In this document: piece after piece, positions 6,568 to 64,000 of the stretch
How the letters are laid out: every line of letters starts with the position of its first letter
How positions within the stretch are numbered: the stretch's first letter is position 1
Source of the DNA: an uncultured Alphaproteobacteria bacterium
Lineage (GTDB): Bacteria; Pseudomonadota; Alphaproteobacteria; UBA8366; JADFVY01
DNA length: 64,000 bases
Direction: 5' to 3'
NCBI GenBank assembly: GCA_947259105.1
Contig: CAMYKU010000001.1
Location: 1 to 64,000 of the forward strand
Made by a program: the position numbers and the translations under genes
The notes under the pieces: model-generated
Databases searched by the model: none
What the model saw: only the letters and a program-made list of their open reading frames with translations
What the model was told of the DNA's origin: nothing

Positions 6568-8397
6568 TCAGCCCGCTTCGGCTTCCCGCCGGCGCTGGTC
6601 GCGCTTGCGCTCGTGGGGGTCGAGGAGCGCCTTGCGCAGGCGGACGTTGTTCGGCGTCACCTCGACGCGCTCGTCGTCGGCGATGTAGGCGATGGCGTCC
6701 TCCAGCCCCAACCGGGTCGCCGGCGTCAGGCGCACGGCCTCGTCCTTGCCGGAGGCGCGCATATTGGTGAGCTGCTTGCCCTTGAGCGCATTGACTTCGA
6801 GGTCTCTGCCCTTGGCGTGCTCGCCGATGATCATGCCCTCGTAGACCTCGGCGCCGGGCTCGATGAACAGCCGGCCGCGCTCCTCCAGGTTCCACAGCGC
6901 ATAGGCCACCGCCTTGCCTTGCCCGTTGGCGATCATCGAGCCTTCGCGGCGGCCCGGAATCGGCCCCTTGTAGGGCGCATAACCGTGGAACAGCCGGGTC
7001 ATCACGCCGGTACCGCGGGTATCGGTCAGGAACTCGCCGTGATAGCCGATCAGGCCGCGCGAGGGCACGTGGAAGGTCACCCGCGTCTTGCCGCCGCCCG
7101 ACGGGCGCATGTCCGTCATTTCGCCGCGCCGCATGCCGATCTTCTCGACCACGACGCCGGCGAACTCCTCGTCGACATCGACCACGGCCTCCTCGATCGG
7201 CTCCAGTCGCTGGCCGGTCTCCGGATCGGTCCGGTAGATCACGCGCGGCCGGCTGACCGACAGCTCGAAACCCTCGCGCCGCATGGTTTCGATCAGGACG
7301 CCGATCTGCAGCTCGCCGCGGCCGGCGACCTCGTAGGCGTCCTTTTCCGCCGTCTCGCTGATGCGGATGGCGACGTTCCCCTCGGCCTCGCGAGACAGCC
7401 GGTCGCCGATCATGCGGCCGGTCACCTTGTCGCCGTCGCGCCCCGACAGGGGCGAATCGTTGACCGCGAAGGTCACCGCCATGGTCGGTGGGCTGACCTC
7501 GCGCGCGGGCAGGGGCTCGGTCACGCCGGTCGCGGCCAGCGTATCGGCGACGGTGGCCTTTTCCAGCCCGGCGACCGCGACGATATCGCCGGCTAACGCT
7601 TCATCGACCGGCTCGCGCTTCAGCCCGCGGAAGGCCAGCAGCTTGGTCAGCCGGCCGCTTTCCAGCACCGTACCGTCGCGCGACAGGGCGCGTACCGGCA
7701 TGTTGAGCTTCGCGCGGCCCGAATGGATGCGGCCGGTCAGCACGCGGCCGAGATAGGGATCGGATTCCAGGGTCGTCGCCAGCATGCGGAACGGCCCGTC
7801 GGCGTCGCCTTCCGGTGCCGCCACATGCGCGACGATCAGATCGAACAGCGGCCGCATCGACTCGCGCGGATCGCCCAGCTCACGCGTTGCCCAGCCTTCC
7901 TTGGCCGAGGCGAATACGACCGGGAAGTCGAGCTGTTCCTCGCTGGCGTCGAGCGCCACGAACAGGTCGAACACCGCGTCCACCACATGGTCCGGCCGCG
8001 CGTCCGGCTTGTCCACCTTGTTGACCACGACGATGGGGCGCAACCCCAGGGCCAGCGCCTTGGTCAGCACGAACTTGGTCTGCGCCATCGGGCCCTCGGC
8101 CGCATCGACCAGCAGCAGCGCGCCGTCGACCATCGAGAGGATGCGCTCGACCTCGCCGCCGAAATCGGCATGACCCGGCGTATCGACGATGTTGAGCCGC
8201 ACGTCGCCCCAGGTCACGGCGGTGCATTTGGCGAGGATCGTGATGCCGCGCTCGCGCTCCAGGTCGCCGGAATCCATGGCGCGTTCTTCCATCGCCTGAT
8301 GCGCCTTGACGGCACCGGACTGGCGCAGCATCTGGTCGACCAGCGTGGTCTTGCCATGGTCCACATGGGCGATAATGGCGAGGTTCCTGAGTGTCAT
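6568..8397 (-). CDS. typA: Ribosome-associated translational GTPase TypA/BipA
   Basis: 609 aa, full length for the family. The GTPase domain carries P-loop AHVDHGKTT (about 10-18), switch sequence [15 protein letters not shown] and [11 protein letters not shown]-like domains II, III and V follow, then the TypA-specific C-terminus. TypA binds the 70S ribosome and assists 50S assembly and stress or cold adaptation in other bacteria. The ATG at 8397 gives the standard N-terminus [17 protein letters not shown]. The terminator of the upstream kinase gene sits only 15 bp before this start, so its promoter must overlap that region or transcription reads through from the kinase gene. Confidence 0.96.
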
Positions 8398-8411
8398 CCG
8401 TTCCGCTCACA

Positions 8412-8446
8412 GAAAAAAGCTTCCGGCCCGTCCACCGGGACGGGCC
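8412..8446 (-). terminator. Rho-independent terminator after the PfkB kinase gene
   Basis: On the minus strand GGCCCGTCC, a short loop and GGACGGGCC form a 9-bp stem (8425-8446), followed by GGAAGC and six T residues (8413-8418 as A on the plus strand). It separates the kinase gene from typA and lies almost on top of the typA start. Confidence 0.8.
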
Positions 8447-8509
8447 GCGCCGGGTATATAGGGACTGCCGGGCCCCGGGGCCAGTTGAATCTTTGCGCGC
8501 GCCCGGACG

Positions 8510-9526
8510 TCAGTCTTCGGGCTGCTTCGGCAGTTCCCCGATCTTCTCGGCCACCAGCTCCGCCAGGTTCGCCTCCGGGCGGGCGCCGTTGTGCGAGATG
8601 ATCTCGGCCGAGCAGATCGCTGCGATGCGGCCGCACAGGCCGAGATCGAAGCCCTGTGTAAAGCCGTACAGGAAGCCGGCGGCATAGAGATCTCCGGCCC
8701 CGGTGGTATCGACGACCTGGGCGACGGGCTCAGCGTCGATCACGTGCACCTCTCCGTCATGGACGATCACCGAGCCCTTTTCGCTGCGTGTAAGGCAGGC
8801 GATTTCGACATGACCGAGATTGTGCAGCGCCTGCAGCGCGTCGTCGAAACGCTCGACCTGGTACAGCGAGAGGATTTCATCCTCGTTGGCGAACAGGATG
8901 TCGACATGTTTGGCGACGAGATCGCGAAAGGCGTCGCGGTGCCGGTCGACGCAGAACGGGTCGGACAGGGTGATCGAGACCTTGTGTCCCGAATCATGGG
9001 CGAATTCGGCGGCACGAACGAAGGCGCGCTGGGCATCGGGCCGGTCGAACAGATAGCCTTCCATATAGGTCACCTTGCTGGACTGGATGACCTCGCCATT
9101 GAGATCCGAGACGCCCAGCAGGCTGGCCGCGCCGAGATCGGTGCACATGGTACGGTGCGCATCGGCCGTCACCAGCACCAGGCAGCGCCCGGTCGGCGGT
9201 CCGTCGGTGGCGGGTTCGTTCGAGAACTGCACGCCGATGGCGTCGAGATCGTGCCGGAACACGCGGCCGAAATAGTCGTCCTTGACGCGGCCGATATAGG
9301 CGCCCGCGCCGCCCAGCATGGCGAAGCCGGCCATGGTATTGCCGCAGGACCCGCCGGACACCTCGACCGCGGGCGGCAGCTTGCCGTACAGGAAATCCGC
9401 GCGCTGCGAGTCGACCAGCGTCATCGTACCCTTGGCCAGCTGCTGCTCGGTGATGAAACCGTCGTCGACATGGACCACCACGTCCACCAGCGCATTTCCG
9501 ATTCCCACCACGTCGAATGTGGTCAT
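8510..9526 (-). CDS. PfkB-family carbohydrate/nucleoside kinase (adenosine kinase-like)
   Basis: 338 aa. The track ORF extends to 10378, but everything before the ATG at 9526 is antisense to the EI24 gene. The protein begins with the family N-terminus MTTFDVVGIGNALVD and carries both PfkB signatures: GGSCGNTMAGFAMLGG near residue 60 and DTTGAGDLYAAGF near the C-terminus, which holds the catalytic Asp and anion hole. Alphaproteobacterial proteins of this type are usually annotated as adenosine kinase, which converts adenosine and ATP to AMP and ADP, but ribose or other sugars cannot be excluded. It is divergent from the EI24 gene across about 100 bp and is closed by a terminator at 8412-8446. 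Confidence 0.88.
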   Translation of the reverse strand: MTTFDVVGIGNALVDVVVHVDDGFITEQQLAKGTMTLVDSQRADFLYGKLPPAVEVSGGSCGNTMAGFAMLGGAGAYIGRVKDDYFGRVFRHDLDAIGVQFSNEPATDGPPTGRCLVLVTADAHRTMCTDLGAASLLGVSDLNGEVIQSSKVTYMEGYLFDRPDAQRAFVRAAEFAHDSGHKVSITLSDPFCVDRHRDAFRDLVAKHVDILFANEDEILSLYQVERFDDALQALHNLGHVEIACLTRSEKGSVIVHDGEVHVIDAEPVAQVVDTTGAGDLYAAGFLYGFTQGFDLGLCGRIAAICSAEIISHNGARPEANLAELVAEKIGELPKQPED

Positions 9527-9628
9527 GCTTTTCCCTCTTGCTGCGCGCGTGACTATAATTCGCCGCGACGCCCTGGCAAACGGTAAAGACTTGCTCATCC
9601 GGGCCGGCATGCGATACACCCGTCGACC

Positions 9629-10372
9629 ATGATGAGGTATTTCACGATGGCGGTGGGGCAGCTCACCGACCCGCGGATGCGCGGCGTTCTGTGGATGGGC
9701 ATCCTGGGCGCGCTGGCAGTCTTCGTCCTGCTCTGGGCCGCGGTGTGGTGGCTTATGCTGGCGATCGACCCGTCCACGGTCTGGGGCCTGTCGACGCTGA
9801 TCGAGTGGTCCGGCGACTATTTCGACTGGGTGGCGGGCGCCGCTATCGTGGGCGCCATGCTGGTCGCCACCTTCCTGATGTTCCCTGCGGTCGTCACCAT
9901 TGTCGTCGGGATCTTCCTGGACAGGGTCGCGGATGCGGTCGAGGCCCGGTACTATCCGGACCTGGGACCGCCGCGCAGCCAGCCATTGGCGGAAACCCTG
10001 CTGTCGACGGTCAGATTCGCGGTGGTCGTCGTTCTGCTCAACATCCTGATCCTGCCGCTCTACCTGGTCCTGTTGCTGCTGCCGCCGGCGAATCTGGTTC
10101 TGTACTACCTGCTGAACGGCTATCTGGTGGGCCGGGAGTTTTTCGAGCTCGCCGCTTTCCGCCGCCTGGCGCCGGCCGAGGCGACGCGCCTGCGCCGCGC
10201 CTTCCGGTCGCGGGTGCTGATGGCCGGGGTCATCCTGACCTTCCTGATGACGATCCCGGTCGTGAACTTGCTGATGCCGGTGCTGGGCGCGGCGTTCATG
10301 GTGCATGTTGCGCACGATCTGATGCGCCGGCAGGCCATCGTGCCGGCCACCATCGGGCCCATTCAGGGATAG
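9629..10372 (+). CDS. EI24 / CysZ-family membrane protein
   Basis: 247 aa with about six hydrophobic segments: around residues 23-45, 65-100, a long pair at about 130-165, and two more near 195-235. The overall pattern matches the EI24 (DUF540) family, which includes the sulfate transporter CysZ. No sulfur-assimilation gene is adjacent, so sulfate transport should not be assumed. It is divergently transcribed from the PfkB kinase. Upstream ATGs are absent; the first two codons are Met-Met, so the exact start is uncertain by one codon. Confidence 0.8.
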   Translation: MMRYFTMAVGQLTDPRMRGVLWMGILGALAVFVLLWAAVWWLMLAIDPSTVWGLSTLIEWSGDYFDWVAGAAIVGAMLVATFLMFPAVVTIVVGIFLDRVADAVEARYYPDLGPPRSQPLAETLLSTVRFAVVVVLLNILILPLYLVLLLLPPANLVLYYLLNGYLVGREFFELAAFRRLAPAEATRLRRAFRSRVLMAGVILTFLMTIPVVNLLMPVLGAAFMVHVAHDLMRRQAIVPATIGPIQG

Positions 10373-10532
10373 ATTCACAGCTCTGCCTTGATTCCGTCAT
10401 GATTTATGGCGAATATTCCTCAAATTGATGGCGTAGCGCGTATCGTTTCAGTTACAAACCGATTCGGCATGGGGCCTCCGGCAAACGTCTGCCGCGGTCG
10501 CCTGCCGCCCGGTCCCCGAAGGAGAGACTGCC

Positions 10533-11009
10533 ATGGGCACGGTCAAGGAGATCACGCAACCAAATCAGCCACGCCCTGCAGCGTCGGCCCGGCCCGGAGC
10601 GGGCCTGCCGCGCAAGACGGGACCGCTTTCGGTTCAGAGCGACTCGAAGCGACTCACGGTCGGTCGGGAGATCAGCCTGTCGGGCGAGATAGACTCATGC
10701 GAAATGCTGGTTGTCGAAGGTGCGGTGAAGGCGACTCTTGACGGCTGCAAGACGCTGGAAATAGCGCGGTCCGGCAAATTCAACGGCACGGCCCACGTGG
10801 CGGTGGCGGATATCGCCGGCACGTTCGACGGCACCCTCATGGTCACCGACCGGTTGATCCTTCGCGCCACGGGGCGCATCGTCGGGACGATTCGCTATGG
10901 CGAGATCGAGATCGAGCGTGGCGGCCGGATCGAGGGAACCTCGGAGCATATGTCCGGCCGCGATAGCAGCAATGACGGCGGCACCGAGCGACACCCCCTG
11001 CAGCGCTGA
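10533..11009 (+). CDS. Bactofilin (polymer-forming cytoskeletal protein)
   Basis: 158 aa. After a Pro/Ala-rich disordered N-terminus of about 35 residues comes the DUF583 right-handed beta-helix with short repeated turns such as GEIDSCEMLVVEGAVKA, GKFNGTAHVAVA and GRIVGTIRYGEIEIERGG. A flexible C-terminal tail follows. Bactofilins self-assemble without nucleotide and act as scaffolds for cell-wall enzymes or polar structures. A good GGAGAG Shine-Dalgarno sequence lies 6-8 nt before the ATG. Its 3' end overlaps the next gene by 41 bp, suggesting coupled expression. Confidence 0.92.
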   Translation: MGTVKEITQPNQPRPAASARPGAGLPRKTGPLSVQSDSKRLTVGREISLSGEIDSCEMLVVEGAVKATLDGCKTLEIARSGKFNGTAHVAVADIAGTFDGTLMVTDRLILRATGRIVGTIRYGEIEIERGGRIEGTSEHMSGRDSSNDGGTERHPLQR

Positions 11010-11418
11010 GCCTGCCGCGACGCGGCGACCCGGGCTTGCGGTCATGCTGGCCGCGGCCCTGAGTCTTGCCGCGTGCGCCGAGGCGGGCGGTCCGCAGAGT
11101 GACGCGGAGGAGCAGGCGGCGGTGCTGGCGCCCTATAGCGGGATGGCCGTGGTGCCGCCATCGGCCGACCCCGATCAGTTGCTCGGACTCAGCGGCGACG
11201 ATATTGCCGCGAAGCTCGGCAAGCCGACGCTGATCCGGCGCGACGGTGATGCCGAGGTGTGGCAGTACCGGCGGGTGCGCTGCGTCCTCGACCTGTTCCT
11301 GTACGGCAGCCGCAAGCAGGTCGAGCACGTCGACCTGCGCGACCGCGGCGACGCCACCGACGAGGCGGTGCAGGCATGCTTCCAGCAGATGCTGGAGACT
11401 CCCCCGGATTCGACCTGA
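10969..11418 (+). CDS. Small predicted lipoprotein, SmpA/OmlA-like
   Basis: 149 aa from the ATG at 10969, which lies inside the end of the bactofilin gene; an alternative ATG at 11041 would give 125 aa. The sequence RRPGLAVMLAAALSLAAC is a lipoprotein signal with the modified cysteine in LAAC, favouring the upstream start because it supplies the basic n-region. The mature part has DPDQLLGLSGDDIAAKLGKP followed by EVWQYR, resembling the outer-membrane assembly (SmpA/BamE-like) fold, but I would not assign that function. Neither start has a strong ribosome-binding site. The overlap with the bactofilin gene implies a two-gene envelope unit. Confidence 0.75.
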   Translation, partial: AMTAAPSDTPCSAEPAATRRPGLAVMLAAALSLAACAEAGGPQSDAEEQAAVLAPYSGMAVVPPSADPDQLLGLSGDDIAAKLGKPTLIRRDGDAEVWQYRRVRCVLDLFLYGSRKQVEHVDLRDRGDATDEAVQACFQQMLETPPDST

Positions 11419-11430
11419 ATTGTCGCGCGA

Positions 11431-12063
11431 TCACAGCGCCTTCGCCTTGTAGCCGCAGAGGTCGTTGACCACGCAGGAAGGGCAATCCGGCTTGCGCGCC
11501 TTGCACACATAGCGCCCGTGCAGGATGAGCCAGTGGTGGGCGTGCAGCTTGTACTTCTGCGGCACCGCCTTCTCCAGCTTCTGTTCGACCGCCAGCGGCG
11601 TCTTGCCGGGGGCGAGGCCGGTGCGGTTGCCGACCCGGAAGATATGGGTGTCGACGGCGATGGTCGGCTCGGCGAAGGCAATGTTGAGGACGACATTGGC
11701 GGTCTTGCGGCCAACTCCGGGCAGCGTCTCCAGCGCCGCGCGGTCCCGCGGGACGGCGCCGCCATGCGCGTCGATCAGCATCCGGCTGAGCGCGATCACG
11801 TTCTTCGCCTTGGTGTTGAACAGCCCGATGGTCCGGATGTAGTCGCGCAGCCTGGCTTCGCCCAGCGCCACCATCTTCTGCGGCGTGTCCGCCACCTTGA
11901 ACAGCGGGCCGGTCGCCTTGTTCACCCCGACGTCGGTCGCCTGCGCCGACAGCACCACGGCGACCAGCAGCGTATACGGGTTGATGTATTCCAGCTCGCC
12001 GCGCGGGTCGGGATTGCGTTCCTCGAGCCGCCGGAAGAATTCCTCGATATCCGCCTTCTTCAT
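11431..12063 (-). CDS. nth: Endonuclease III (DNA glycosylase/AP lyase)
   Basis: 210 aa from the ATG at 12063; the 25-codon track extension is unlike the family. Base-excision repair enzyme removing oxidised pyrimidines. The helix-hairpin-helix has LPGVGRKTANVV with the catalytic Lys, the essential Asp is in AVDTHIFRVGNR, and the C-terminal [4Fe-4S] ligands follow the exact C-x6-C-x2-C-x5-C spacing (CKARKPDCPSCVVNDLC). It converges on the lipoprotein gene, with 12 bp between stops, and is divergent from the DUF2244 gene. Confidence 0.97.
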   Translation of the reverse strand: MKKADIEEFFRRLEERNPDPRGELEYINPYTLLVAVVLSAQATDVGVNKATGPLFKVADTPQKMVALGEARLRDYIRTIGLFNTKAKNVIALSRMLIDAHGGAVPRDRAALETLPGVGRKTANVVLNIAFAEPTIAVDTHIFRVGNRTGLAPGKTPLAVEQKLEKAVPQKYKLHAHHWLILHGRYVCKARKPDCPSCVVNDLCGYKAKAL

Positions 12064-12125
12064 GGCCGCGAGATTAGCCGCAGGCCGGTGCATCGCCAAG
12101 GCCCGTGACCCTTGTCCGCGCGAAA

Positions 12126-12160
12126 CAACCCCATGCACCGGCGTTTTCTGCGGGTTTCAG
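12126..12160 (-). repeat. 35-bp dispersed intergenic motif, copy 1
   Basis: On the minus strand this reads CTGAAACCCGCAGAAAAC and continues to GCATGGGGTTG. A second copy at 43992-44026 on the plus strand matches 32 of 35 positions. Both copies are intergenic. The function is unknown. Confidence 0.75.
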
Positions 12161-12226
12161 GCCCCCGTCGCACGGCCATCGGAGAGGACTCTGGACAGCG
12201 GGCACTGGGCGGAATAGCCTCGATCC

Positions 12227-12757
12227 ATGGCGGGTAGAGAGGATCGGGACCGCGCGTCCCGGGAGAGCGGCGGCCGCGTGTTTTTCGACGCGGTGCTGCA
12301 TCCCCATCGCAGCCTGACACGGCGCGGATTCGCCGTGGTCATGGCGATCGCCGCGGCCGGGCTGTTCGCGGTGGGGCTGCTGTTCCTGCTGCTGGGGGCC
12401 TGGCCGGTGATCGGATTCTGCGGCTTGGAAGTGCTGCTTCTGTATATCGCGTTACGCGTCAGTTTCCGCGATGCCCGGGCCTCGGAGCGGATCCGGCTCA
12501 GCGATTCCGGGCTGGAGATCAGCCGCCTGACGCCGGACGGCGCGGTGGCGGGGACCTGGCGCTTCCCGCCGAACTGGCTGCGCGTGACCATGGAGGAACC
12601 ACCGCGGCACGACAGCAAGCTGATACTGTCGAGCCACGGGCGGAACCTCGTCATCGGCCGCTTCCTTACCCCCGACGAGCGCGCCGAACTGGCGGCTGCG
12701 TTGCGCGCGGCGCTGGACCGCTGGCGCTGCAAACCGAACCCCTGCGCCGCGGCCTGA
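12227..12757 (+). CDS. DUF2244 domain membrane protein
   Basis: 176 aa. A polar N-terminus of about 25 residues is followed by HPHRSLTRRGF and two close hydrophobic segments (about 35-78), then a soluble C-terminal domain with RLSDSGLEISRL and a WRFPPNWLRV segment. This is the layout of the DUF2244 family, common in Alphaproteobacteria and of unknown function; it is often found near cytochrome c oxidase or nth genes. Here it is divergent from nth and 52 bp upstream of the EamA transporter gene. Confidence 0.82.
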   Translation: MAGREDRDRASRESGGRVFFDAVLHPHRSLTRRGFAVVMAIAAAGLFAVGLLFLLLGAWPVIGFCGLEVLLLYIALRVSFRDARASERIRLSDSGLEISRLTPDGAVAGTWRFPPNWLRVTMEEPPRHDSKLILSSHGRNLVIGRFLTPDERAELAAALRAALDRWRCKPNPCAAA

Positions 12758-12809
12758 GAGCCCGGACCGGAGTATGTTGTTGTTTTCACGGGCCAGGCTC
12801 TGATCCGCC

Positions 12810-13718
12810 GTGCCGACCCAACCGTCCCGGCCGGGCGCCGTCGAGATCGCCCTCCTGCTCTCGCTCGCCACGATCTGGAGCTCGTCCTTCGCCTTCATCA
12901 AGGTCGCGGTCGAGACGGTGCCGCCGCTCTCGGTGGCGGCCGGGCGCCTCCTGCTGGCCGCGGTGCTGATCGTCGCCGTGACCCGGCTGCGCGGCCTGAA
13001 ATTCCCGCGCGAGAAAGGCCTGTGGCCGAAATTCTTCGCCATCGGCCTGTTCGGCAACGCGCTGCCCTTCTTCCTGATCAGCTGGGGCGAGGTGACGATC
13101 GACAGCGGGCTGGCGGCGATCCTGATGGCGGCGATGCCGCTGGCGACGCTGGTGCTGGCGCATTTCTTCACCAGCGACGAGCGCATGAACCCGGCGCGCG
13201 TGCTTGGCGTGTTCCTTGGCTTCGGCGGGGTCCTGGTGCTGATCGGCCCGGCCGCGCTGGCCGGGCTCGGCGACGAGGCGATCCGCCAGACCGCCGTGGC
13301 CGGCGGCGCCGTCTGCTACGCCATCGCCACGGTCACGGCGCGGCGGCTGCCGAGGATGCCGCTGTTCGTCAGCAGCGCCGGTGCGCTGATCGCCTCGGTC
13401 GTGCTGTCGCTGCCGCTGGCGTTGCTGATCGACCGGCCCTGGGCGCTGTCGCCCTCGCCGGAATCGCTCGGCGCGGTGGTGGTGCTCGGGCTGTTCCCGA
13501 CGGCGCTCGCCATGCTGATGTATTTCGCCCTCTTGCAGCGCACCGGCGCCACCTTCATCGCGCTCAACAACTACCTGATCCCCAGCCTCGGCGTGATCTG
13601 GGGCATCCTGTTCCTCGGCGAAGCGCTGTCGCCGCGCGCCATCCTCGCCCTCGCCATCATCCTCGCCGGCATCGCGGTGACCCGCATCGGCATGCGGCAG
13701 GGCGCGCCGAAGGCGTAG
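12810..13718 (+). CDS. EamA/DMT-superfamily transporter
   Basis: 302 aa starting at GTG. Two tandem EamA repeats of five helices each: the first runs about 10-135 and the second about 150-290, with the characteristic WSSSFAFIKVAVETVPPL near the N-terminus and NNYLIPSLGVIWGILFLGE in the second half. Drug/metabolite transporters of this type export amino acids or other small metabolites; the substrate is not evident. The gene ends two bases before a long inverted repeat shared with the convergent dapB. Confidence 0.88.
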   Translation: MPTQPSRPGAVEIALLLSLATIWSSSFAFIKVAVETVPPLSVAAGRLLLAAVLIVAVTRLRGLKFPREKGLWPKFFAIGLFGNALPFFLISWGEVTIDSGLAAILMAAMPLATLVLAHFFTSDERMNPARVLGVFLGFGGVLVLIGPAALAGLGDEAIRQTAVAGGAVCYAIATVTARRLPRMPLFVSSAGALIASVVLSLPLALLIDRPWALSPSPESLGAVVVLGLFPTALAMLMYFALLQRTGATFIALNNYLIPSLGVIWGILFLGEALSPRAILALAIILAGIAVTRIGMRQGAPKA

Positions 13719-32300: not shown

Positions 32301-32507
32301 ATGGCTACAGGAACCGTGAAGTGGTTCAACGCAGTAAAAGGCTTTGGCTTTATCGAGCCGAGCGATGGCTCGAAGGACGTGTTCGTCCACATTTCGGCCG
32401 TTGAGCGCGCCGGCTTGCCGGGGCTCAATGAAGGCCAGAAGATCACCTATGAAGTGGTCCCAGGCCGCGACGGCAAAAGCTCGGCCGAGAATCTGGTCGC
32501 CGAGTAA
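32301..32507 (+). CDS. cspA: Cold-shock domain protein
   Basis: 68 aa, a single cold-shock domain (OB fold). RNA-binding motifs RNP1 KGFGFIEP and RNP2 VFVHISAVER are intact, and MATGTVKWFN is the standard start. Family members melt mRNA structure and act in cold adaptation or growth control. AAGAGGAA lies 7 nt before the ATG. A small terminator follows at 32561, and a short charged protein gene comes next. Confidence 0.96.
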   Translation: MATGTVKWFNAVKGFGFIEPSDGSKDVFVHISAVERAGLPGLNEGQKITYEVVPGRDGKSSAENLVAE

Positions 32508-32632: not shown

Positions 32633-32803
32633 ATGCCCCGCAAGCCAAACTACCAGTTCGAGCGCCGGGAGCGGGAGCGCGCCAAGGCCGCCAAGAAGGC
32701 GGCGAAGGCGGAGCTGAAGAAGCGCAAGACGGAAGAAGCGGCCGTCGAGGCCGGCGAACCCGGGGCGGTCCTGGACGACGGACCGGAGCCGGAAAGCGAC
32801 TGA
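32633..32803 (+). CDS. Small highly charged protein, 56 aa
   Basis: Below the length cut of the ORF track. ATG at 32633 is preceded by GAAAGGAG at ideal spacing. The product is MPRKPNYQFERRERERAKAA... with an Arg/Lys/Ala helix (about 10-37) and an acidic C-terminal tail ending PEPESD. Short proteins starting MPRKPxYxFERRERER are widespread in Alphaproteobacteria as hypothetical proteins, which supports it being real. The bipolar charge suggests a nucleic-acid- or ribosome-associated factor, but that is inference. It lies about 45 bp after the cspA terminator. Confidence 0.75.
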   Translation: MPRKPNYQFERRERERAKAAKKAAKAELKKRKTEEAAVEAGEPGAVLDDGPEPESD

Positions 32804-32954: not shown

Positions 32955-33902
32955 CTATTGCGCCGGCGGAAGGTTCCACAATCGCTCCGCATTTCCGTGC
33001 GCAACGGCGTGGGCGACGTCGTCGGGCAGGTCCGCCAGCGCATCTCGCCACACCGCGACCTGGGGCAGGTAGAACTTCTCCCAGTGATTGGCCCAGACAT
33101 TGTCGAAACCGAGCACGAAACGCTCCGGATAACGCACGATCAGCGCCCGCCACGGCGGCGACAGTTTGCGGCCCGCGAACATCTCGGGCCATGGCTCGCG
33201 CGATCGCGCGGTCATGACCGGGTTGGTATGGGCCGGGATGAAATAAAGGTTGGGATGCGCCGCGATCAGGCGCGCCGCCTCGTCCGGGCCGAGCTGGGCC
33301 ATGTGGATCAACACGAAGGGCTGGCCGGGACTGGCGCGGAGCATGGCCTCCAGTTGCCGCATGTACAGGCCGCGATCGGCGCCGATGCCGGCGAACTCGA
33401 TATGGGCGATGAACGGCCAGCCGCGCTTCCGCGCCGCATCGAGCGCGACAGCCACCTTCTCGTGGCCGGGCGGGAACGCCACTTCCGGCGCGATGCTCTT
33501 GCCCTTCCTGTTGTGTTTTTCCGCGTGGTAGATCAGCACTTCGGCCATGGCCGCGAACTCGGGGAATTTCAGCTGTTTGTCGAGAAACGCCTGGAACGCC
33601 CGGGTCGATTTGTCCTGGTAGGCGCCGCCCTTTGTGCGCACCGCCGCGGTGATGCGGTCGGGATGGCGCCGCGCGAACGCCACCATGTCCCTGACCGTGG
33701 TCTTGCGGCGGGCGGCGAGGATCGTGCGCGACACGCCGGCGGCGTCCATGAGTTCGACGATGCGCTCCAGCGCGATGCCGTCCTCGGCCTGGCTGTGCGC
33801 ATCGATGATCGGCAGCCGCTCGGCCGCACCGGCCGCGGCGCTTGCGGCAAGCAGGGCCGCCGCACAGGCCCCGATCGCAAGGCGGATGAACCGCGTATTC
33901 AT
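32955..33902 (-). CDS. Exported amidohydrolase-2 family (TIM-barrel) protein
   Basis: 315 aa from the ATG at 33902. A signal peptide (MNTRFIRLAIGACAAALLAA, cleavage near AGAAE) implies periplasmic location. The amidohydrolase-like barrel shows IIDAHSQ (a degenerate HxH motif, Asp-Ala-His), PFIAHIEFAG, FVLIHMAQLGP and GFDNVW near the C-terminus. The first metal-binding His is not obvious in IIDAHSQ, so metal binding may be altered. Substrate unknown. A tandem 20-bp duplication and the hinT fragment repeat lie directly upstream. Confidence 0.78.
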   Translation of the reverse strand: MNTRFIRLAIGACAAALLAASAAAGAAERLPIIDAHSQAEDGIALERIVELMDAAGVSRTILAARRKTTVRDMVAFARRHPDRITAAVRTKGGAYQDKSTRAFQAFLDKQLKFPEFAAMAEVLIYHAEKHNRKGKSIAPEVAFPPGHEKVAVALDAARKRGWPFIAHIEFAGIGADRGLYMRQLEAMLRASPGQPFVLIHMAQLGPDEAARLIAAHPNLYFIPAHTNPVMTARSREPWPEMFAGRKLSPPWRALIVRYPERFVLGFDNVWANHWEKFYLPQVAVWRDALADLPDDVAHAVAHGNAERLWNLPPAQ

Positions 33903-33910
33903 TGCATGGG

Positions 33911-33950
33911 CTCGCGCGCCGGAATGGGGGCTCGCGCGCCGGAATGGGGG
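33911..33950 (+). repeat. Perfect 20-bp tandem duplication
   Basis: CTCGCGCGCCGGAATGGGGG occurs twice back to back (33911-33930 and 33931-33950), just upstream of the amidohydrolase start. It looks like a recent slippage or duplication in the promoter/leader region. Confidence 0.95.
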
Positions 33951-33973: not shown

Positions 33974-34018
33974 CTATTTGTCGACCGGCTTGATCATGCG
34001 GCCGAGGTCCTTGCCGGC
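33974..34018 (-). repeat. 45-bp direct repeat of the hinT 3' end (distal copy)
   Basis: Identical over 45 bp to 36737-36781, the last 14 codons plus stop of hinT. With that copy it brackets the 833-aa membrane protein gene. The repeat begins exactly at the hinT stop codon and matches nothing else nearby. Confidence 0.95.
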
Positions 34019-34027
34019 AAATTGGCC

Positions 34028-36529
34028 TCATTCCCCGGGCGCCGGATCGCGTAAAGTACGAGGCGGAGACGCCGGCTGCGTGACGCCGGCGCGGACTTTC
34101 GCCGACCGCGGCCTCGACAGCAGCAAAGCGGCCGGCAGCAGCAAAGCATAACACAACGCGCCGAGCATCATTGTCTTGTCGAGGCCGAGGCTTATGCTCG
34201 TCGCAATCGCGACAGCGCTACCCAGCACGCCCGCCGCGCCGTTAACGCCCCAGAGCCATGGGGTTATGCGGTTGTTCCGCCGCTCGCAAAGGCTCATCCC
34301 GGTTGGGAATCCGAAGCCCAGCAGAATGCCGCCCGGTATCGTGAGCGCCAGACAGGCGAGCGCGCGCAGGGCCAGCGTCAACTCCGTCAACTCAAGGAAG
34401 ATCCTGTGGATCACAAGGCCCGCTATCAGGAAGTAGCCCGCCGTCAGCGCCACCCAGACGATGATCCGGCTTCGGCTGTTCAACGGCAGCCGGCCGGAAG
34501 CCAGACTACCGATGCCCGTCGACAGGATCAGGCTGAACAACACGACCGCCAGGCCCAGGCTTGGATGGCCGAGAAAGAGCCCCATCGTCTGCAGCAGGCT
34601 GATCTCCAGGAACATGAACCCAAGGCCGATCAGAAAGAAATATGCGGTGCCGCCGATAAACGTCGCCCCGTCGATCGCCTCGACGGAGCGGCGGAGCGGG
34701 TAAAGTATGACCAGCGCGACCATGAGCGCCGAAAACAGGATGACGAAGAACAGGTTCAGCGACGCCCGGACATGCCCCGGAACGAACGGAGCGGTCCCGT
34801 CCCGGGCCAATCTGAAGAGTTCCAACGGTCGGCCCAGCGGCGCCTGGTTGAAGAAGAAGGGCTGGGCGTCGGTTGGCGGAAAGAGCTTCAGGAAGCCGTG
34901 CGCCGTCGCCGACTCGAGTTCATCCTCGTTGCCGGCCTCGACGATTGCCTTAAGCATGGGAGCGGCTGTGCTCCGGCGTGGCGAAACGATCACCTCGAAC
35001 GCCATCTCCCCGGCGGCCTCGTCCAGCACGTCCAGTTGCGTCTGCGTAAGCGGGTCACGCGCCAGGATCAGTGTCGAAAGGTTCTTTGTCGGCAGCGTTG
35101 TGCCCGCAAGATAGATATGCGCCCGCGGGTTCCGGGCGCCGCGATCCAACAGCGCTGCGACGGCCAGGCTGAGAATGCGCCCTGTTTCGGGCATGTCGGG
35201 CCTGTTCAGCCAGCGGCTGACCGTGAACACGCCGCCTTCGGCGAGATCGTCCATGAAAACGCGCCAGGCTTCGACCGTGTAGAGGCCGTTTTCCGATAGC
35301 GCGAACGCGCCGGCGCTGGTCGAGGCCCAGGTGTCGACCATGCTCATTTGAATTATGTCGAAGGATTCCCTGTTGCGACTGAACCAGCTGCGGGCCTCGC
35401 TGCGAACCAGCTCAACATTCTCAAGCTTGTCGAAACCCGTATAGCTCCGGTAATGGGGATCGTTCCGCAACAGATTGATCTGGGTCGAATTGACATCCAG
35501 CGCGACCACCGAATCCACGCCGAAATACTTCGCCGTCAGAACATCCCTGCCGCCGCCGACACCGATGACGGCCGCGCTTTCCAGGCCGGAAAGGCGATAG
35601 GCCAGTGACGTGATATCGTAGGCAAGGAAGTCCAGGTCCCCGAAACTTGTTCCATCGAAGCGCGTCAGCGGCGTTCCCGCTTCGCCGTCGATAATCAGAT
35701 TGCGATAGGTCGCGCGAGCCGAGTCCGGCAGTCTGGTCGAGGGACCCCAGAGGAACGGCCTTTTGCCTTCCCATTCCGTATGCACCGTAACACGAGAGAT
35801 GCTATTCCAGCGATCGAGGTCGATCGTCGATTGCGGTACCGCAACGCCCTTGGCGAACAGCGGGTAAACCAAGGGCTTGTCCAATGTCGCGTTGACCGTC
35901 CCGAAGATCAGCAACAGCGCGACACCGGTGACGAGAGGTTTCTCGTCGAATAACGGCTGGTCTGCCGCGCTACCCATCGCAGCGCGGCGGAAACACAGGC
36001 CCGACGCCATGGGAATCGCCGCCGCCATAAGCAGGGCCGACGGGGTATCCAGAACCTCCATGAGCAAAAGCGCCGCAAGGCAGCCGGCGGCGGCGCCGAG
36101 CAGGTCATATCCGTATACCGCGCTAACTTTGAAGGGCGAGCGCGTCAGACAGAGCGAGATGACCATGCCCGCGAAATAGAACGGCAGGCCGGTCAGGAGC
36201 GCAACCGTCGGCAGAAAAATTGCCGTTAACGCGAAACGGCTGTCGATGATCGGCACCGTCATCGACAACAATACGGCTACGGGCAGCGATACACCGAAAT
36301 AAAGCGAGCCTTTCGCCGCCACATAAAGAAGGGTCTTCCGCTGCGTTTCCGCATCGCCCCGGTAGACCCGGACCGCACCCAGCGTCATTCCGAACATGGC
36401 GATGCTGATAACGAGAAAAGATACGTGATACCAGGTGGTTACGGAGAAAATCCGGGACAGCATGAGCTGCACCATCAATACGCTTGCACTGACCAGAAAA
36501 ACCCCAAACAGGAACCAGCCGCGATGCAT
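34028..36529 (-). CDS. Membrane protein with aminopropyltransferase-like core, 833 aa
   Basis: Three-part architecture: about six transmembrane segments (about 1-215, starting FLFGVFLVSASVLMVQLMLS), a soluble SAM-type Rossmann region (about 300-600, VIGVGGGRDVLTAKYF and VVALDVNSTQINLLRND), then about eight more helices (about 610-820, FFLIGLGFMFLEISLLQTMG, GGILLGFGFPTGMSL). This resembles the spermidine-synthase-like proteins embedded in membranes, whose donor and acceptor are unknown. AGGGG lies near the ATG at 36529. Two sampled 60-bp lines had 32/60 G+C, against 41/60 in a hisB line, and a 45-bp repeat flanks the gene. Both features suggest acquisition. Confidence 0.85.
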   Translation of the reverse strand: MHRGWFLFGVFLVSASVLMVQLMLSRIFSVTTWYHVSFLVISIAMFGMTLGAVRVYRGDAETQRKTLLYVAAKGSLYFGVSLPVAVLLSMTVPIIDSRFALTAIFLPTVALLTGLPFYFAGMVISLCLTRSPFKVSAVYGYDLLGAAAGCLAALLLMEVLDTPSALLMAAAIPMASGLCFRRAAMGSAADQPLFDEKPLVTGVALLLIFGTVNATLDKPLVYPLFAKGVAVPQSTIDLDRWNSISRVTVHTEWEGKRPFLWGPSTRLPDSARATYRNLIIDGEAGTPLTRFDGTSFGDLDFLAYDITSLAYRLSGLESAAVIGVGGGRDVLTAKYFGVDSVVALDVNSTQINLLRNDPHYRSYTGFDKLENVELVRSEARSWFSRNRESFDIIQMSMVDTWASTSAGAFALSENGLYTVEAWRVFMDDLAEGGVFTVSRWLNRPDMPETGRILSLAVAALLDRGARNPRAHIYLAGTTLPTKNLSTLILARDPLTQTQLDVLDEAAGEMAFEVIVSPRRSTAAPMLKAIVEAGNEDELESATAHGFLKLFPPTDAQPFFFNQAPLGRPLELFRLARDGTAPFVPGHVRASLNLFFVILFSALMVALVILYPLRRSVEAIDGATFIGGTAYFFLIGLGFMFLEISLLQTMGLFLGHPSLGLAVVLFSLILSTGIGSLASGRLPLNSRSRIIVWVALTAGYFLIAGLVIHRIFLELTELTLALRALACLALTIPGGILLGFGFPTGMSLCERRNNRITPWLWGVNGAAGVLGSAVAIATSISLGLDKTMMLGALCYALLLPAALLLSRPRSAKVRAGVTQPASPPRTLRDPAPGE

Positions 36530-36736
36530 CGTTGCGCCCCTGTACCTTATGATGCCGATATCGGCCGTGCTCGATGGTGGACGGGAGCTCGAACGGCGGC
36601 CTGACCGCTATTTCCGCCCGAAAGCAGCACACACTTTCCCGCAACGCCGGGACTCTATTACCCTTCCGGTGATTAAGAATTTGTGAACCTCGCATGGGGT
36701 CCGGTTGCCAGCACGCTGCCCTGGCGGCAGGCAGGC

Positions 36737-36781
36737 CTATTTGTCGACCGGCTTGATCATGCGGCCGAGGTCCTTGCCGGC
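36737..36781 (-). repeat. 45-bp direct repeat (hinT-resident copy)
   Basis: Covers the last 14 codons and stop of hinT and is identical to 33974-34018. It is the possible attachment-like side of the insertion, because the gene stays intact at this side. Confidence 0.95.
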
Positions 36782-37105
36782 GAAGATGTGCACGTGGAAA
36801 TGCATGACCTCCTGATGCGCATCGGGCCCGCAATTGGAAAGAATGCGATAGCCGGACCCGACGACGCCCAGGTCGCGCGCCACCCTGCCGACGGCGCGGA
36901 AGAAGCCGATGATCTCCTCGCCCGTGGCGCGGGCCGCGAAATCGTCGGACGACGCATATGGCCCCTTGGGGATCACCAGCACATGGACCGGCGCCTGCGG
37001 CTCGATATCGCGGAAGGCCAGCGCCCAGTCGTCCTCGTACACCCTGTCGCAGGGAATTTCGCCGCGCAGGATCTTCGCAAAGATGTTGCTCTTGTCGTAA
37101 CTCAT
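36737..37105 (-). CDS. hinT: HIT family purine nucleotide hydrolase
   Basis: 122 aa from the second ATG (37105): GGGAG lies 7 nt before it but only 1 nt before the first ATG at 37111. HinT hydrolyses AMP-lysine-type phosphoramidates. The histidine triad is HFHVHIFAG near residue 100, with NIFAKILRGEIPC at the N-terminus and VLVIPKGPY in the middle. hisE lies 160 bp upstream on the same strand, the usual alphaproteobacterial hisE-hinT order. Its final 45 bp are duplicated 2.8 kb downstream. Confidence 0.95.
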   Translation of the reverse strand: MSYDKSNIFAKILRGEIPCDRVYEDDWALAFRDIEPQAPVHVLVIPKGPYASSDDFAARATGEEIIGFFRAVGRVARDLGVVGSGYRILSNCGPDAHQEVMHFHVHIFAGKDLGRMIKPVDK

Positions 37106-37264
37106 TTTCATGCTCCCTCAGTTGCCGGGCGGCCGCATCCGCGATTCCTTCCGATTGCGCCGGCCGCCCTGGGCCAACCCCTGCGCGGGGCTTTCGCCGC
37201 ACCGGCGGCGGCCCGCGGTCGCGGGCTCACCCAGCCCGTAATCCGGGCCGGGTCCCGTATTTCG

Positions 37265-37594: not shown

Positions 37595-37633
37595 GCCGCC
37601 TGCCTAGCAGAAAACCTGCGCCCTGTGAAAGAT

Positions 37634-37809
37634 TAACCACAGAGACACAGAGACACAGAGAGGATGGAGAAAATCAGATCTTCCGCGGTTTCTGTCCAGC
37701 AACCTGCGCGATTTGGGGTCAATTGATACCCGGCCAAAGCGGCCCCCGAGGAGCGCGGTGACTCCCCGATGATTCCCGAAATCTCTGTGTCTCTGTGGCT
37801 CTGTGGTAA
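37634..37809. repeat. CACAGAGA inverted repeat, copy 2 (extended)
   Basis: Left arm 37634-37663 repeats the first 30 bases of the copy at 13725. The right arm at 37782-37809 (TCTCTGTGTCTCTGTGG then CTCTGTGGTAA) is its reverse complement with one mismatch. About 118 bp of unrelated sequence lies between the arms, with no ORF of interest. It separates hisF from hisE. Confidence 0.85.
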
Positions 37810-37814
37810 ACCCT

Positions 37815-38579
37815 TTAAGCCTCAAGCCGCACGGGGACACCGGCCTTGGCCATGTGTTCCTTGGCCTCGCGGATCGAGTAGGTGCCGAAATGGAAGATCG
37901 ACGCCGCCAGCACCGCCGCGGCGTGGCCTTCGCGCACCCCTTCGACCAGGTGATCGAGGGTGCCGACGCCGCCCGAGGCGATCACCGGCACCGGCACCGG
38001 ATCGGCGATTGCGCGGGTCAGCGCGCAGTCGAAACCTTCCTTGGTGCCGTCCCGGTCCATCGAGGTCAGCAGGATCTCGCCGGCGCCCGAAGCGGCCATG
38101 CGCTGTGCCCATTCGACCGCATCGATGCCCGTCGGCTCGCGCCCGCCATGGGTGAAGACCTCCCACGTGCCGGGGCCCGAGCGCCGCGCGTCTATGGCAA
38201 CGACGATGCATTGCGCGCCGAAGCGTTCCGCCGCCTCGGCCACGAATTCCGGGCGTTCGACGGCGGCGGTGTTGATCGAAACCTTGTCGGCGCCGGCCAG
38301 CAGCAGGCGCCGGATGTCGCCGGTGTTGCGCACGCCGCCGCCGATGGTCAGCGGCATGAAGCACTGCTCGGCGGTGCTGGCCGCGATGTCGAGGATGATG
38401 TCGCGGTTGTCGGACGAGGCGGTGATGTCGAGGAACGTCAACTCGTCGGCGCCGGCCTCGTCATAGACGCGCGCCTGTTCGACCGGGTCGCCGGCATCGA
38501 CGAGATTGACGAAATTCACGCCCTTGACGACGCGCCCGTCCTTCACGTCGAGACACGGTATGATACGGATCTTCAGCAC
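37815..38579 (-). CDS. hisF: Imidazole glycerol phosphate synthase, cyclase subunit
   Basis: 254 aa from GTG at 38579, overlapping the hisA end by 7 bp; the much longer track ORF is a run-on through hisA in another frame. (beta-alpha)8 barrel with the two catalytic aspartates in [15 protein letters not shown] (N-terminus) and [15 protein letters not shown] (about residue 130). Pairs with HisH to convert PRFAR and ammonia to IGP and AICAR. Confidence 0.96.
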
Positions 38580-62906: not shown

Positions 62907-64000
62907 CAAGCGCCGCTGTGAGGGCGCCCGGTTCGGTGATCGGCAGGGAGCAGGTCTGGCCGTGGCAGACATAGACCGTCGCGGTGCCGTCCTTCTGGGA
63001 CTTGCCGCGGGCGGGATGCCCGTCCGGCAGGGCGTCGCCCGGCGCCACCGTCTGGATTACCCGGTTGGGGACGGAAATGCGTGTCAGCGCCTGTAGCATC
63101 GCCGCGGCCCGCGGTTCGCTGCGATCGCCGACGAGCACGATCTGGACCGGCGCAAACAGGAACTCGCTGGCGTTGAGCAATGTCGACAGCGGGAAGAAAT
63201 TGCGGGCGAGTTCACCCGAAAACGCCGTTACGACAGTGTCGGCGGCCTGGCGGTAGGCATCGTTTCCGGTCAGCAGCCACAGCCGGGCCAGGACCTCGAC
63301 CATGACGCCGTTGCCGGACGGCGTCGGATTGTCGCTGGCCGTCTTGTTCCGTACGATCAGGCCCGGTGTGTCACTGGCGGCAAAGAAGTAGCCGGGTTTT
63401 CCGGGCTCGCTGTAATACTGCTCGACGAGGCCGGCCCAGCGTTCCGCCTGCGCGAGATAGGCGGCGTCCCCGGTGGCCTCAAGCAGCAGCAGCGCCGCGC
63501 GGGACATGTTGGCGTAATCGTCCAGCGTCGCCGGATGCTGCAGCCGCCCGGCACGCCAGGAATGCCGCAACCGCCCGTCCTCGGTCATGCGGTCCCGCAC
63601 GAACGCGAAGGCGCGCGCCGCGGCATCGATCCATTCGGGGCGCCCCAGAGCCTGTCCTGCGGCCGCCAGGGCGCCACTCATCAGGCCGTTCCAGTCGGCC
63701 AGCACCTTGTCGTCCTTGGCGGGCGGGATGCGCGCAGAGCGGGCTTCCAGCAGGATGGCCCGGGACCGGGCCAGCGCCGATTCCGTTTCGGCGTCGGCAA
63801 GCCCCCGTTCCGCGAGGCGGTTCAGGATGGTCCTGCCTTCCCAGTTACCGGCGTCCGTGACCTCGTAATGTTGTGCGAACAGCGGCGCCGCGGCGCCAAG
63901 CAGGGACTCCACCTCGTCCCGGGTCCAGACATAGAATTTTCCTTCCTCTCCCTCGCTGTCGGCATCCAGCGAGCTGGAAATGCCGCCCTCCGGCTGGACC
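62896..64000 (-). CDS. YyaL/DUF255-type thioredoxin-domain protein (5' end outside window)
   Basis: The track starts at an internal GTG at 63912, but the frame continues to 64000 with GGISSSLDADSEGEEGKFYV before it, the classic YyaL segment. Only the C-terminal ~368 residues are visible: the six-hairpin glycosidase-like region (DDYANMSRAALLLLEATGD, NPTPSGNGVMVEVLARLW) and a C-terminal CHGQTCSLPI. The N-terminal thioredoxin fold lies outside the window. Function uncertain; human SPATA20 is a homologue. Confidence 0.9.
   Translation of the reverse strand, partial: VQPEGGISSSLDADSEGEEGKFYVWTRDEVESLLGAAAPLFAQHYEVTDAGNWEGRTILNRLAERGLADAETESALARSRAILLEARSARIPPAKDDKVLADWNGLMSGALAAAGQALGRPEWIDAAARAFAFVRDRMTEDGRLRHSWRAGRLQHPATLDDYANMSRAALLLLEATGDAAYLAQAERWAGLVEQYYSEPGKPGYFFAASDTPGLIVRNKTASDNPTPSGNGVMVEVLARLWLLTGNDAYRQAADTVVTAFSGELARNFFPLSTLLNASEFLFAPVQIVLVGDRSEPRAAAMLQALTRISVPNRVIQTVAPGDALPDGHPARGKSQKDGTATVYVCHGQTCSLPITEPGALTAALGGA

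Follow-up and report, generated by a model that had tools for sequence, protein, structure and literature searches.

Layout of the hinT locus

The locus lies on the minus strand of the window (the whole 64,000-nucleotide stretch that was analysed), where hisE, hinT, a 207-bp spacer, an 833-aa open reading frame (ORF), a 45-bp copy of the hinT end and an amidohydrolase gene follow one another in that order. The hinT-like HIT-family gene (36737-37111, minus strand; a PF01230 match) is intact and 84% identical to its ortholog in G001, the sole congener compared. The spacer (36530-36736) lies upstream of the gene for an 833-aa SpeE-like membrane protein (34028-36529, minus strand), which was characterized from its ORF, its hydropathy, an AlphaFold model and a fold match. 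The distal copy of the hinT end (33974-34018, minus strand) starts 9 bp past the stop codon of this gene and 71 bp before the start of the amidohydrolase gene (32955-33902, minus strand), the latter being recognized from a PF04909 match and from synteny with G001. On the plus strand, the interval between hinT and comM also holds a cold-shock-protein gene (32301-32507) and a small basic ORF with no family match (32633-32802), both of which are conserved in G001 and in G006, which belongs to a different genus of the family. Scans of the region for promoters and terminators found no signal that exceeded chance.

A sequence-only reading of the window had described an exact 45-bp duplication of the 3′ end of hinT around a single membrane gene, and repeat comparison confirmed it. 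The distal copy is identical to the proximal copy (36737-36781, minus strand) across 45 bp, and one mismatch followed by two further matches extends the repeat to 48 bp at 98% identity. Read on the minus strand, the repeat unit comprises the final 14 codons of hinT and its TAG stop codon, and one edge of the match coincides exactly with the end of that stop codon. The 4.2-Mb assembly has no copies beyond these two, and because the number of exact 45-mer pairs expected by chance in 64 kb is ~1e-16, a chance origin is excluded. The segment between the two 45-bp copies measures 2.72 kb and contains one intact gene, that for the 833-aa protein.

Three other features were seen nearby. At 33908-33950, in the stretch that separates the amidohydrolase gene from the distal hinT remnant, a 20-bp unit (GGGCTCGCGCGCCGGAATGG) is perfectly repeated in tandem (2.2 copies). 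Between hisE and hisF, the sequences at 37628-37661 and 37782-37815 form a 34-nt inverted repeat that is rich in CACAGAGA. ARAGORN called a tRNA-Arg antisense within hisF (38294-38384), which is probably a false positive. A survey that covered 1.71 Mb of the genome also looked for pairs of exact direct repeats, at least 24 bp long and within 15 kb of each other. When classed by eye from their positions and sequences, and not one by one, the longest pairs mostly resembled tandem arrays, dispersed palindromic repeats or paralogous stretches. Elsewhere in the genome, on contig C11, repeat pairs of 49, 42 and 31 bp lie 8.6 kb apart (~63167-63401 and 71833-71992), one carrying the reverse complement of the other's end (TGATAATGACCCATTTGA), and these resemble the ends of an insertion-sequence-like element.

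An empty site in a congener and the age of the event

The same reading had predicted that a related genome would show an empty site with one copy of the repeat, and such a site was found in G001, whose genome is one contig of 3.86 Mb. In that genome, hinT leads through a 54-bp spacer to the amidohydrolase gene (73% identical to that of the window), with no SpeE-like gene between them and one copy of the hinT end. This finding supports the claim that something was inserted at the end of hinT, and it implies that the distal copy marks the original position of the hinT end relative to the amidohydrolase gene. By this comparison, hinT stood directly before the amidohydrolase gene in the ancestor, as it still does in G001, and in the lineage of the window a segment of ~2.7 kb with the SpeE-like gene was placed between the two. 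The last 45 bp of hinT were copied in the process, leaving the whole gene on one side and a 45-bp remnant on the other. The empty site thus marks the duplication and its insert as derived, except in the case that G001 lost the segment by a precise deletion between the copies.

That exception amounts to a rival account, in which both copies are ancestral and G001 lost the intervening segment. Recombination between the repeats would yield exactly the G001 arrangement, but a copy standing free would be expected to have accumulated differences since G001 split off, barring gene conversion. Divergence at fourfold sites between the window genome and G001 is 0.33 (33%), i.e., ~0.2 per lineage; a noncoding copy as old as that split would be expected to show ~10 changes in 45 positions, and none was seen (P ~5e-5). 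We consider an ancestral pair very unlikely. Because the copies are identical despite the 33% fourfold divergence from G001, the event is recent on this reckoning, or else the copies have been kept alike by gene conversion.

An assembly artefact, with a mis-join at the 45-bp repeat, must also be weighed, as the draft assembly consists of 121 contigs and is 88.8% complete. Against it, both flanks are syntenic with G001 and G006, and G006 has the inserted gene in this interval as well; we place scarcely any weight on a mis-join.

The inserted gene, its product and its origin

The AlphaFold model of the 833-aa protein (mean pLDDT 82, pTM 0.85) shows a spermidine-synthase-fold domain flanked on either side by long helices, and hydropathy marks these helices as membrane segments. 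The best fold match in the PDB was 1uir (E = 4.4e-7; TM-score by target length, 0.49), in agreement with a spermidine-synthase fold, and no Pfam or NCBIfam family scored above threshold. Residues 323-329 read GVGGGRD where spermidine synthases have GxG(D/E)G, which puts an arginine at the acidic position when the glycines are aligned by eye. GVGGGRD recurs in most relatives of ~40% identity or more in which the motif was read, and two more distant relatives have GGGAD. In spermidine synthases, the acidic residue of the GxG(D/E)G motif binds decarboxylated S-adenosylmethionine (PMC10349129), and by this residue criterion the sequence argues against a polyamine synthase. The seven-transmembrane methyltransferase NHMT (PMC10349129) likewise combines membrane segments with a spermidine-synthase-fold domain that lacks the acidic residue of this motif. 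The protein studied here differs from NHMT in being bacterial and in having membrane segments on both sides of the domain, and the two are likened by their features and not by homology. Plasmid-borne relatives, in Microvirga and others, are annotated as SAM-dependent methyltransferase or spermine synthase.

We sought relatives of the gene among 60 related genomes and in wider sets (44 genomes from the order, with samples of 385 from the class and 399 from the phylum). The closest, at 74% identity, is in G006, and the next best is at ~44%; across the order, class and phylum sets, close relatives were confined to this family. A scan of genome contigs matched only the G006 record (CAMYNJ010000101.1, an alphaproteobacterial metagenome-assembled genome) and one distant relative. 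In G001 to G005 the gene is absent, and only distant homologs are found. The G006 copy lies in the same hinT-comM interval and in the same orientation, 1.85 kb after hinT, from which it is separated by the cold-shock block and a GST-like ORF; it thus sits on the opposite side of the cold-shock block from the window copy. Homology between the two spans the ORF and does not extend into the sequence on either side. At fourfold sites they differ by 0.54, which lies at the upper end of the values for 34 other syntenic genes, yet inside their range (z = 1.7).

The hinT-comM interval is a variable spot beside the his operon. Its content varies by family member (L047, positions 7668-13690, in G006; L048, positions 7312-10500, in G005), with ORFs in these two genomes that resemble, as judged from their sequences, a GST, an alpha/beta hydrolase, a MarR regulator and an ion channel.

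The sequence-only reading had held the gene to be foreign DNA that is visibly less GC-rich than its neighbours. Its GC content is indeed lower than that of its surroundings (0.617 versus 0.666 for 124 kb of the same contig), but the 32/60 and 41/60 G+C of the sampled lines on which the reading drew exaggerate the contrast. Compared with 62 membrane-like ORFs, a subset that we used for the codon statistics after dropping the set of all long ORFs owing to contamination by antisense ORFs, the gene falls at about the 6th percentile for GC3 (0.77) and about the 11th for GC, which is low but not an outlier, and the G006 copy is also low in GC (0.593 versus 0.646 for its contig). Of the two checks that the reading had proposed, the empty site was borne out and codon usage did not prove clearly alien. 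With a relative in the same family and interval, a divergence within the range of neighbouring genes and a composition that is only mildly low, foreign origin was not supported. From these comparisons, the gene looks like one that the family already had in its pool, patchily distributed among its members, and not like a recent import from afar.

Mobile elements, rearrangement routes and known parallels

A duplicated gene end around an insert is the anatomy of an integrative element, and integration by an integrase had been put forward for this locus. The features in its favour are a direct repeat that stops exactly at the stop codon and leaves hinT restored, together with the empty site in a relative. 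On the other side, the insert holds one gene only, the SpeE-like gene from the family's own pool, and no recombinase is encoded within it or in the window. All genes recognized in the assembly as members of the Phage_integrase family matched XerC or XerD best, and a search for resolvase-family genes came back empty (at 88.8% completeness, this absence is not absolute); integrase action is unlikely for this reason. No exact match to a 26-bp core of the repeat was found in viral contigs, no relative of the gene was found in phages, and none of its plasmid relatives is close (best, 46% identity). The same site was not occupied in five other family members, none of which carries a second copy of its own hinT end near hinT. 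The anatomy alone suits an attachment site; no other tested feature does. We therefore find integrase-type integration unsupported, and a small element that used the hinT 3′ end as its attachment site, with its recombinase lost or supplied in trans, has a very slim chance of being the explanation. The narrower idea of a recombinase-less minimal cassette with the same attachment site, moved in trans by an element absent from the assembly, is less likely still. A recombinational origin, which the sequence-only reading had allowed as an alternative, is what remains.

In our judgment, a recent rearrangement without a site-specific recombinase probably left the hinT fragment as a scar. Within this class we slightly favour relocation, to which about half of our confidence in the class belongs. 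The gene would have come from the family's own pool and, judging from G006, probably from the same hinT-comM interval. A tandem duplication would have begun 45 bp inside hinT and ended shortly beyond the SpeE-like gene; the redundant copies would then have been lost, leaving hinT, the SpeE-like gene, the hinT remnant and the amidohydrolase gene in their present order. This route accounts for the hinT remnant, for the position of the remnant after the SpeE-like gene and for the co-location in G006. The observations that bear on it are the single 45-bp hinT remnant and the G006 gene in the same interval beyond the cold-shock block; a search of the window for leftovers of a second SpeE-like copy, or of any other duplicated gene, found none. 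The absence of the gene from G001 to G005 counts against relocation, because its vertical presence in the interval would need several losses. The fourfold divergence from G006 at the upper end of the local values and the lack of homology between the flanks of the two genes speak against it as well.

The other route within this class, in which homology-facilitated illegitimate recombination or staggered-break repair brought in a fragment from elsewhere, is a real possibility, if less than an even one. The fragment could have come from incoming DNA of a family member or, as a displaced piece, from another chromosomal site, and illegitimate insertion with a 45-bp target duplication leaves an anatomy identical to that left by relocation. 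The patchy presence of the SpeE-like gene and the differences in interval gene content among the family members compared both speak for this route, and illegitimate recombination is thought to lie behind many small variable segments in bacteria (PMC2884548). It demands, however, that the location in G006 be a coincidence or the mark of a hotspot, the co-location then reflecting a variable interval that gains genes repeatedly. Nor was a donor sequence with the 207-bp spacer found, the spacer being single copy in its own genome and giving no match in six family members, in a search run without a positive control.

If a rearrangement without a site-specific recombinase is the correct reading, the locus would be a recent, clean example of a gene gaining a new position without a mobile element. 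It also carries a caution, in that a duplicated gene 3′ end alone is no proof of an integrase. Small rearrangement scars are common in bacterial genomes and a single case is of little weight; this one is ordinary in kind and useful mainly as a recent, testable rearrangement scar.

Three known systems invite comparison. Integrative elements at gene 3′ ends share with the locus a duplicated gene end that flanks an insert and a restored target gene; the locus differs from them in that its one cargo gene belongs to the family's own pool, it lacks both recombinase and mobility genes, and five relatives show no other occupied hinT end. The small repeat-flanked variable segments described as microdiversity (PMC2884548) likewise place a short segment between core genes, with a direct repeat and no site-specific recombinase, but they span 20 to 500 bp with repeats mostly under 30 bp, whereas the segment here is 2.7 kb long and its repeat 45 bp. 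The third comparison is with gene-order change by duplication and loss, as proposed in the SNAP hypothesis (PMC7055797) and for mitochondrial duplication-random-loss (PMC5745709). The locus departs from SNAP in showing one 45-bp fragment only, with no known intermediate, and in a duplicated span that would measure a few kilobases, less than the reported duplications of 8 to 355 kb (PMC7055797). As of the 2020 SNAP paper, direct empirical evidence for such gene-order change was still lacking (PMC7055797), and because the intermediates predicted by the duplication-loss route are specific, the locus could test that route once closer genomes are at hand. The likeness lies in the outcome: a gene shifts within its neighbourhood, and a truncated fragment stays behind.
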